NCBI GenBank assembly: GCA_016209155.1
Contig: JACQWU010000164.1
Coordinates: 1 to 13,457 of the forward strand
Length of the DNA stretch: 13,457 bases
Source of the DNA: Candidatus Desantisiibacteriota bacterium
GTDB taxonomy: Bacteria > JACRDZ01
Direction of reading: 5' to 3'
Of the stretch, positions 8,423-10,486 are shown in pieces. Under the pieces are notes generated by a model. That model was not told the DNA's origin and did not search any database. It worked only from the letters and a program-made list of their open reading frames with translations. How positions within the stretch are numbered: position 1 is the first letter of the stretch; every line of letters begins with the position of its first letter. The position numbers and the translations under genes are program-made.

Positions 8423-8471
8423 GTAGGGAACGGTTTCAAACCGTTCCGTACCAAACCGTTTCGTTCCCTAC
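8423..8471 (+). repeat. REP palindrome, compound copy 1 (RAYT 3' end)
   Basis: It begins GTAG followed by GGAACGG-TTTCAAA-CCGTTCC and then a second CCGTTT half ending CCCTAC. GTAG before a hairpin is the hallmark of REPs recognised by RAYTs. On the minus strand it encodes RAYT residues 175-185 and the TGA stop. Confidence 0.85.
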
Positions 8472-8993
8472 GTCATCCAATCCCCATTTTAATGGATTTT
8501 CTTGAATGTATTTACGAATGTCATGCAATGATTTTTCATCACGAACAACATGATCATAAAATGATTTTTGCCATTGGAATTTTATATCATCCGATATTTT
8601 TTCATTAATCCTTCTTGACGAAAATGTCTTAAATCCTCGAATAATTTCCGATAATCCATGATTATTTGTAGGGAACGGTTTCAAACCGTTCCGTACCAAA
8701 CCGTTCCCTACATTATCAATCACAACAATCCCATGAACATGATTTGGCATAATAACAAATTCATCCAATTTTATATTTTTATAATGTTCAGGTAAATCAA
8801 TCCAACATTTAAAAACAATTTCTCCATATTCATTTAACACTGTTTTTTCATTTTCAATCTTTCCAAACCATTCTTTTTTATCATGTATGCATATTGTAAC
8901 AAAATAATATCCATTTTGAGAATAATCATAATTTTGCAATCGCTGATTTTTACGAATTGGATGTTTTTGTATTTGTTTATTTTCTTGCATCAT
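8436..8993 (-). CDS. REP-associated tyrosine transposase (IS200-like, Y1_Tnp)
   Basis: This 185-residue single-strand transposase acts at REP hairpins. It has the N-terminal NYDYSQNGYYFVTICIHDKK, the metal-binding HUH site in FVIMPNHVHGIVV (His85, His87), LSEIIRGFKTFSSRRIN, and the tyrosine region WQKSFYDHVVRDE (likely catalytic Tyr146) followed by IRKYIQENPLKW. AGGA lies 7 bases before the ATG at 8993. A REP inside the gene (8668-8711) is read through in frame as residues 95-109 (VGNGLVRNGLKPFPT), in the variable loop between the HUH site and the next conserved block. The last 11 residues and the stop come from another REP. The catalytic core is intact, so it may be active. Confidence 0.9.
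   Translation of the reverse strand: MMQENKQIQKHPIRKNQRLQNYDYSQNGYYFVTICIHDKKEWFGKIENEKTVLNEYGEIVFKCWIDLPEHYKNIKLDEFVIMPNHVHGIVVIDNVGNGLVRNGLKPFPTNNHGLSEIIRGFKTFSSRRINEKISDDIKFQWQKSFYDHVVRDEKSLHDIRKYIQENPLKWGLDDVGNETVWYGTV
8668..8711 (+). repeat. REP palindrome, compound copy 2 (inside the RAYT gene)
   Basis: It is nearly identical to copy 1: GTAG, the GGAACGG/CCGTTCC hairpin, then a second half ending CCCTAC. It is preceded by ATTATTT, as is copy 4. It lies within the RAYT reading frame without breaking it. Confidence 0.85.
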
Positions 8994-9011: not shown

Positions 9012-9056
9012 GTACGGAACGGTTTCTGTACGGAATGGTTTGAAACCATTCCCTAC
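9012..9056 (-). repeat. REP palindrome, compound copy 3 (RAYT 5' side)
   Basis: On the minus strand it starts GTAGGGAATGGTTTCAAACC, a diverged copy (AATGG for AACGG), followed by a second half. Its orientation is opposite to copies 1 and 2. Its first bases supply the TAG that ends the mod frame. Confidence 0.8.
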
Positions 9057-10433
9057 ATATTTTTATCATTTGTCTTTATTGTTTGGTACTGCTGAACCAT
9101 AGCCACAGAGAGCATTTGCGTTGTTACATAAATACTGTTATTCCCTTGCCCTTTGCCATGCTTCCAATAGTCTTTTTGGCCTGGCGCAAAGGTATAGTTC
9201 AAGAGCTTACACATAGCGCGGATGAGTTTGGTGTCGTTATAAAAACTATCAATTACCGGGTTGCCAAATTCATCAATTGTAATAAAGCTTGGGGCGAGTT
9301 CATAGAATTTAAAACCGCCACCGCCTTTCCAGTTGAGTGCTTTGCTAATACCGCTTTGATCTTCACCACTTACAACAGACTTCATACGTTTATGTACATG
9401 TGAATAAGCATGCTCACCCATTTCAATTCCAATGTATTTGCGCCCCATCTTGTGGGCAACTGCCGCAGTTGATCCTGATCCGAGAAAAGAATCGAGAATC
9501 ATATCTCCACTAATGGATGAGAGTTCCAATATTCTTTGAAGTAATGCCTCTGGTTTTTTACCATTAGGAAATAAAACATCTCCCTCTTTTGTTAAATTAT
9601 TCAATGGAAATCCATCCCAATAGGTTCCAAGCTTTCCAAACTTTATAAGAGAGTTTCCTCTTTTAACAGCTATATCTTTTAGCCATGCAATCAGGAATAG
9701 TCTTTATTTGTAAATTTTTGTGTTTAAATATTTTTATAGGCATTCCAGAACCATCTTGTATTTCAGAAAAAAAAGAACGCTCTCCCATATCAATAAATAC
9801 TCTGGTATATTTCCAGCTTTTTCCTTGATCTCTCATCTCATTTATTAATTCAAAGAGATCCTCTTCTTCCAATACCTCATTAAACTTTGGAAAACAAATA
9901 TAATTTTTTGTATAAATTAATATATATTCAATATTTTTCTTAAGACGTTTATCTTCACCGCCTCCGCTAGCTCCGGAGGTTTGTTTCATCTTTACACTTA
10001 TTTGATTAATAAAATTTGATCGTCCAAATACCTCATCAAGAAGTACTTTTCCATATGCCATTTCATCATCACTTAATTGACAAAATATTGTGCCGTCTTC
10101 CCTCAAAAGCATTAGTAAAAGCTCCAATCTCGATTTCATAAGCGAAAGCCAAGTTGAATGTTCCACACTATCATCATATTTTTGATTTTCAAAAGCATTC
10201 CCTGTATTATACGGCGGATCAATATAAATACATTTTATTTTCCCCTCATATTCCGGCAAAAGCGCCTTGAGCGCCAGAAGGTTATCCCCATGTATAATCA
10301 TATTTTCAGTCTTCGGATCCCCATACGACAAATCCGCCCGCTCTTCCAAAATCCGCGGCTCAATATTAGCAATATCATATTCCGGATTATTTTTACCAAT
10401 CCAAGTAAGTTCCAATTTTTGTTTTTTAGACAT
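9053..10433 (-). pseudogene. mod: Type III DNA methyltransferase (Mod), frameshifted and 3'-truncated
   Basis: The N-terminal part (10433 to TAA 9663-9665, 256 codons) starts MSKKQKLELTWIGKNNPEY and carries NMIIHGDNLLALKALL and the catalytic DPPYNTG (residues 72-78). The C-terminal part continues in another frame from about 9700: LIAWLKDIAVKRGNSLIKFG, then PNGKKPEALLQRILELSS and the AdoMet-binding FLGSGSTAAVAHKMGRKY. Motif IV before motif I marks a beta-class type III Mod, which methylates adenine and guides Res. The shift lies within 9666-9703 and equals one extra base. Read through, the product is about 460 residues. The tail stops soon after NSIYVTTQMLS, where family members usually continue, and its TAG is made by a REP, so the 3' end looks cut. 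A sequencing error could explain the frameshift but not the REP junction. AAAGGG lies 11 bases before the ATG. Confidence 0.85.
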
Positions 10434-10457: not shown

Positions 10458-10486
10458 GTAGGGAACGGTTTCAAACCGTTCCCTAC
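10458..10486. repeat. REP palindrome, single copy 4 (upstream of mod)
   Basis: This is a perfect 29-base palindrome with 14-base arms (GTAGGGAACGGTTT and its complement) around one central C. It follows ATTATTT, like copy 2, and lies 25 bases before the mod ATG between mod and the AlbA_2 remnant. It could form a hairpin in the mod leader. Confidence 0.85.

Follow-up and report, generated by a model that had tools for sequence, protein, structure and literature searches.

In-frame REP sequences inside tnpAREP genes have been known since 2018, when Quentin et al. (PMC6006769) described them as a unique and predominant feature of TnpA-REP subclass 2.4 (Bertels group 4), generally positioned between the HuH and Y motifs. 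According to that paper, the subclass is associated with double-foot REPs, the in-gene REPs were suggested to affect activity little, and only subclasses 2.3 and 2.4 are reported to have an enlarged β3-αC loop. Palindromes also lie in frame within genes for unrelated proteins, as described for the Rickettsia palindromic elements and the intragenic GTAG/CGTC REPs (PMC3733652), which are often dimers and presumably occupy tolerant loops. In the passages of PMC6006769 considered here, we found no account of cognate matching, frame statistics, codon conservation, or covariation; we show, by nucleotide sequence comparison, that the REPs inside these genes tend to match the repeats flanking their own gene and that conservation is seen in their DNA and not in the encoded peptide.

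The locus considered here lies in the window, by which we mean the whole stretch of 13,457 nucleotides that was analysed. Its features are as follows.

8436..8993, minus strand: intact RAYT (TnpA-REP) gene encoding 185 aa, its frame uninterrupted between ATG and TGA, with matching motifs, profiles, and structure
8733..8750, minus strand: HUH motif MPNHVH, residues 82-87, from motif reading
8668..8711, minus strand: in-gene double-foot REP, 44 nt, GTAG...CTAC plus one extra 15-nt half unit, covering residues 95-109; from the palindrome, its further copies, and the translation
8508..8510, minus strand: Y162 in YIQENP, the predicted catalytic tyrosine by analogy with the family; invariant in 56 relatives
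8423..8471, minus strand: second extended REP, at the RAYT 3' end, which encodes the C-terminal VGNETVWYGTV together with the stop codon TGA (8436-8438); from the palindrome and ORF reading
9012..9056, minus strand: third extended REP, a short way upstream of the RAYT start codon; the TAG stop of a methylase ORF (9053-9055) lies within its GTAG; from the palindrome and ORF reading
10458..10486, no strand: fourth REP, a simple 29-nt palindrome, intergenic; from the copy search

The RAYT start codon is preceded by AGGAAA, a likely Shine-Dalgarno sequence, and the encoded protein possesses a complete catalytic set (MPNHVH, W141-Q142, and Y162), of which H85, H87, and W141 are, like Y162, invariant in the alignment of 56 relatives. 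The protein matched PF01797 (1e-8) and, in two stretches, the NCBIfam model NF047646, "REP-associated tyrosine transposase" (E = 8.4e-21, 74.4 bits against a cut-off of 80). This near miss is consistent with a loop insert splitting the match; moreover, the cut-off is an NCBI naming threshold that does not define RAYTs, and membership is not decided by it. An alignment-based AF2 model (mean pLDDT 87, pTM 0.80), which replaced a single-sequence model with a pLDDT of 34, had as its best PDB match by Foldseek the RAYT bound to a REP hairpin, 4er8 (E = 2e-7). The window protein thus has the Y1 HUH transposase fold with the HUH, W-Q, and Y motifs characteristic of RAYT/TnpA-REP proteins, and GTAG-footed REPs, another mark of these genes, are present on both sides of it (9012-9056 and 8423-8471). 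The HUH-Y1 fold is shared with E. coli TnpA-REP (4er8) and the IS200/IS605 transposases, but identity to the E. coli protein is only ~18%, and the enlarged loop sets the two apart.

On the basis of motif and REP features, the best explanation is that the window RAYT belongs to subclass 2.4 (group 4) of TnpA-REP. The subclass motifs NH[IFV]H and WQ are present (NHVH and WQ), the Y motif YIQENP is one position off the consensus YIxNNP (several relatives have YIINNP), the gene carries an in-frame REP in the β3-αC loop, and the GTAG...CTAC structure is that of a double-foot or canonical long REP. The variable loop, the flanking REPs, and a patchy distribution over many phyla are further likenesses to the subclass as portrayed in PMC6006769, from which the window differs in that its REP is extended by a 15-nt half unit and that a second REP furnishes the C-terminus and stop. 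Upstream of the RAYT, a DNA methylase gene (PF01555) is seemingly split into two ORFs on the minus strand (9053-9604 for the C-part and 9663-10433 for the N-part), which suggests a frameshift or decay.

The in-gene REP consists of a 29-nt GTAG...CTAC palindrome with one 15-nt half (five codons) repeated once, and since the repeated half unit keeps its length a multiple of 3, the RAYT frame is kept. The coding stretch (GTA...ACA, 45 nt, 8667-8711) encodes VGNGLVRNGLKPFPT, a segment that follows the HUH motif and precedes the next helix; ORF and translation confirm the sequence-only reading of this element as a REP in frame inside an intact RAYT, between the HUH site and the next conserved block. 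According to the AF2 model, the peptide falls in a flexible, low-confidence surface loop (β3-αC) lying between strand 85-92 and helix 114-132. Loop residues 91-110 are the main internal weak stretch of the model (pLDDT ~54 for 101-110), the other being the REP-encoded C-terminus. Folded as single-strand RNA, the REP hairpin gave -28.1 kcal/mol with a z of -5.9.

The genome containing the window (3.1 Mb, a fragmented metagenome bin of 352 contigs that is 79% complete) has eight places where the window REP was found, four at the RAYT locus and four elsewhere. With three more copies at the locus and four others genome-wide, the in-gene REP is, as judged by sequence, the cognate REP of the window RAYT, and the hairpin is probably the sequence on which the enzyme acts. 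All four copies away from the RAYT locus are intergenic, in contrast to the Rickettsia elements and intragenic REPs, which are inserted in many unrelated host genes; the present REP resembles them in being a palindrome in frame in a protein gene, but its host is the RAYT itself, in one fixed loop and with the enzyme's own REP. A paralogous RAYT in the same genome (L005) has a different type of REP in the same loop, arranged as a REPIN-like inverted pair of 64 nt. We also sampled 55 REPs outside RAYT genes in three other genomes. Nearly all were intergenic, with a few in short dubious ORFs and one in a very long ORF, so that the RAYT loop stands out as the intragenic site. The long ORF (L200, in an Omnitrophica genome) encodes ~1000 aa unrelated to RAYT and carries the VGAGLKPAPT REP in frame.

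We surveyed 100 distinct relatives from several phyla, chosen for their resemblance to a seed in which some members carry a REP; a scan of viral contigs provided only two relatives. The loop was taken to begin 11 residues past the start of the HUH motif and to end 12 residues short of the near-invariant lysine in the next helix, and strict palindromes were those with a stem of at least 10, a loop of at most 3, and one mismatch. There were 51 strict palindromes in 7.3 kb of loop, 50 of them differing in sequence, as compared with 12 in the remaining conserved core (~40 kb), and GTAGGG/CCCTAC occurred 125 times in the loop versus 3 times elsewhere in the core. A looser REP signature (a strict palindrome or GTAGGG/CCCTAC) was present in the loops of 79 of these 100 similarity-selected genes. 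Palindrome density was 7.0/kb in the loop and 0.3/kb in the rest of the core; in the flanks it was 1.9-2.6/kb up to 150 nt from the core and 0.2-0.4/kb at distances above 300 nt. We conclude from these sequences that, in the relatives, REPs accumulate at a single site within the conserved gene core, namely the β3-αC loop. Chance palindromes were ruled out by codon shuffling, which gave 0.7 strict palindromes expected in the loops of 100 genes against the 51 seen; its folding z and its three further copies at the locus likewise place the window REP far beyond chance. That the window element might itself be a chance palindrome or an assembly artefact of the metagenome bin is barely conceivable: the assembly is fragmented and incomplete, but the same arrangement recurs in many independent genomes, and the frame and gene are intact.

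The GTAGGG motifs of the loop were read in frame 0 in 46 cases, in frame 1 in 15, and in frame 2 in none, the empty class being the one that puts the TAG of GTAGGG in frame. The peptides from the two frames are unrelated (VGAGLKPAPT, RGGSRTAPT, and GTARRAPT), and loop lengths among the relatives range from 1 to 83 residues. In the family alignment, REP-derived peptides accordingly recur at the loop with different sequence, length, and frame, and relatives without a loop REP (e.g., L018, L023, L086, and L125) have short unrelated loops rather than the 15-residue segment of the window protein. The latter result rules out a conserved protein insertion unrelated to REPs, and the variation among loop REPs supports well the proposal, made from the window sequence, that the REP is a tolerated in-frame insertion. 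Several individual loops deserve mention. A Gracilibacteria RAYT using code 25, in which TGA encodes Gly (L017, positions 918-1427), has an in-frame palindrome with a VGTGLKPVPT REP; the loop of L004 after the HUH motif has tandem QGEDQK/QGEHQI repeats that end in what resembles half a REP, as though amplification of one half unit had taken place; and that of L050 has in-frame tandem half-REP units (RAGLEPVTN), which recall the additional half unit seen in the REP of the window.

Among 20 gene pairs sharing at least 7 loop residues (pairs that are not independent of one another), codons were identical at 143 of 169 loop positions (85%) compared with 670 of 1550 identical residues elsewhere in those genes (43%). 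One shared loop peptide, RNYRKFG, is not REP-derived, and its codons were identical at 3 of 7 positions, like the rest of the gene. In one clade with a common site and frame, the 8-bp stem was 97.7% paired, and 5 of the 8 pairs had changed on both sides, as compared with 0-2 when the partners were slid. It follows from the codon agreement and the stem covariation that the conserved entity is, at the nucleotide level, a hairpin in DNA or RNA and not a peptide, and that selection or turnover acts on this hairpin; vertical conservation and repeated replacement by a cognate REP would both give such a pattern. A functional role of the REP-encoded peptide, for example as a specificity loop, is therefore very improbable. 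The segment is translated in most relatives and its frame is kept, but the two frames yield unrelated peptides in loops of widely varying length, synonymous sites are more conserved than elsewhere, and model confidence is low; we rejected peptide-level function because frame and sequence both vary. Regulation of the RAYT mRNA by the hairpin, whether through paused translation, decay, or protein-mediated autoregulation, would draw on the strong RNA hairpin potential noted above and on a covariation that fits RNA as well as DNA. We nevertheless judge it improbable, since the position of the REP after the HUH motif varies, as does its frame, many relatives have no REP, and the REP-binding enzymes of the family act on ssDNA (PMC8266576).

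To compare each loop REP with its surroundings, the 20 central bases of each strict loop palindrome were searched against 1.4 kb on each side of the gene that carries it and, likewise, of every other gene, with 17 of 20 or better counted as a match. Matches to the own flanks were obtained for 25 of the 51 palindromes, versus 1.0 expected from other loci; the other 26 had no 17/20 match within 1.4 kb, and a nearby cognate REP is thus not universal. For paralogues in the same genome, 17 of 31 matched their own flanks and 2 of 69 matched the flanks of paralogues. Loop REPs, as far as these alignments indicate, tend to match the REPs flanking their own gene and hardly ever those flanking paralogues, and the suggestion of the REP as a target of the enzyme is supported indirectly by the match to the own flanks. 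In the close paralogues L071 and L104, stem pair differences are compensated on the other arm, but the matching flank REPs are absent or diverged, so that this pair does not decide between change in place and replacement. On a tree built without the loop (97 members, 142 columns, poorly resolved), the presence of a loop REP, which 18 of the 97 members do not have, changed 17 times, as compared with 16.7 times with shuffled labels, and the REP frame changed 8 times, as compared with 11.7 (1% of shuffles were as low). These sequences suggest that REPs are often gained and lost and that site and frame are to some degree inherited.

The account that we favor, and regard as probable, is that the in-gene element is the cognate REP of its own RAYT, placed near its gene, surviving and translated as a passive linker in the one tolerant loop, and kept matched to the enzyme. 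The RAYT would move or copy REPs, as ssDNA hairpins, preferentially near its own gene; copies arriving at other positions in the gene, or so placed as to create an in-frame TAG, would be lost; those in the β3-αC loop would survive as a passive linker; and the loop REPs would be renewed or otherwise kept matching the current specificity of the enzyme. REP density was higher in the loop than in even the closest flanks, which simple local insertion with tolerance does not require, and this excess leaves some room for selection or a role in cis. The in-gene REP might then be selected because it ties enzyme to target, such that a transferred or copied RAYT gene always brings its own founding REP. 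Consistent with such selection are the loop REP signature in most of the surveyed genes and its excess over the flanks, the match of loop REPs to their own flanks, the DNA-level conservation with stem covariation, and the location of half of the window genome's REPs at the RAYT. We consider it unlikely, though distinctly less so than a regulatory role in the mRNA, since the REP is scattered over the tree no less than shuffled labels are, the members without a REP indicate that it is dispensable, and flanking REPs could give the same enzyme-target linkage.

Preferring local insertion into a tolerant loop, we put forward only tentatively, and with more doubt than belief, the proposal that this subfamily's RAYT genes are maintained as units complete in themselves, the REP in the loop being a built-in copy of the target that is selected and co-evolves. 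If this is true, the enzyme and its cognate hairpin would always travel together, and the in-gene copy could found each new REP family. The finding bears on the matching of REPs with transposases and on the dependence of REP spread on RAYTs. RAYT genes carrying their own REP, matched to their own flanks but not to the flanks of paralogues, would make up a natural catalogue of enzyme-target pairs that is readable from single genes, and a RAYT's own loop could serve to predict its specificity.
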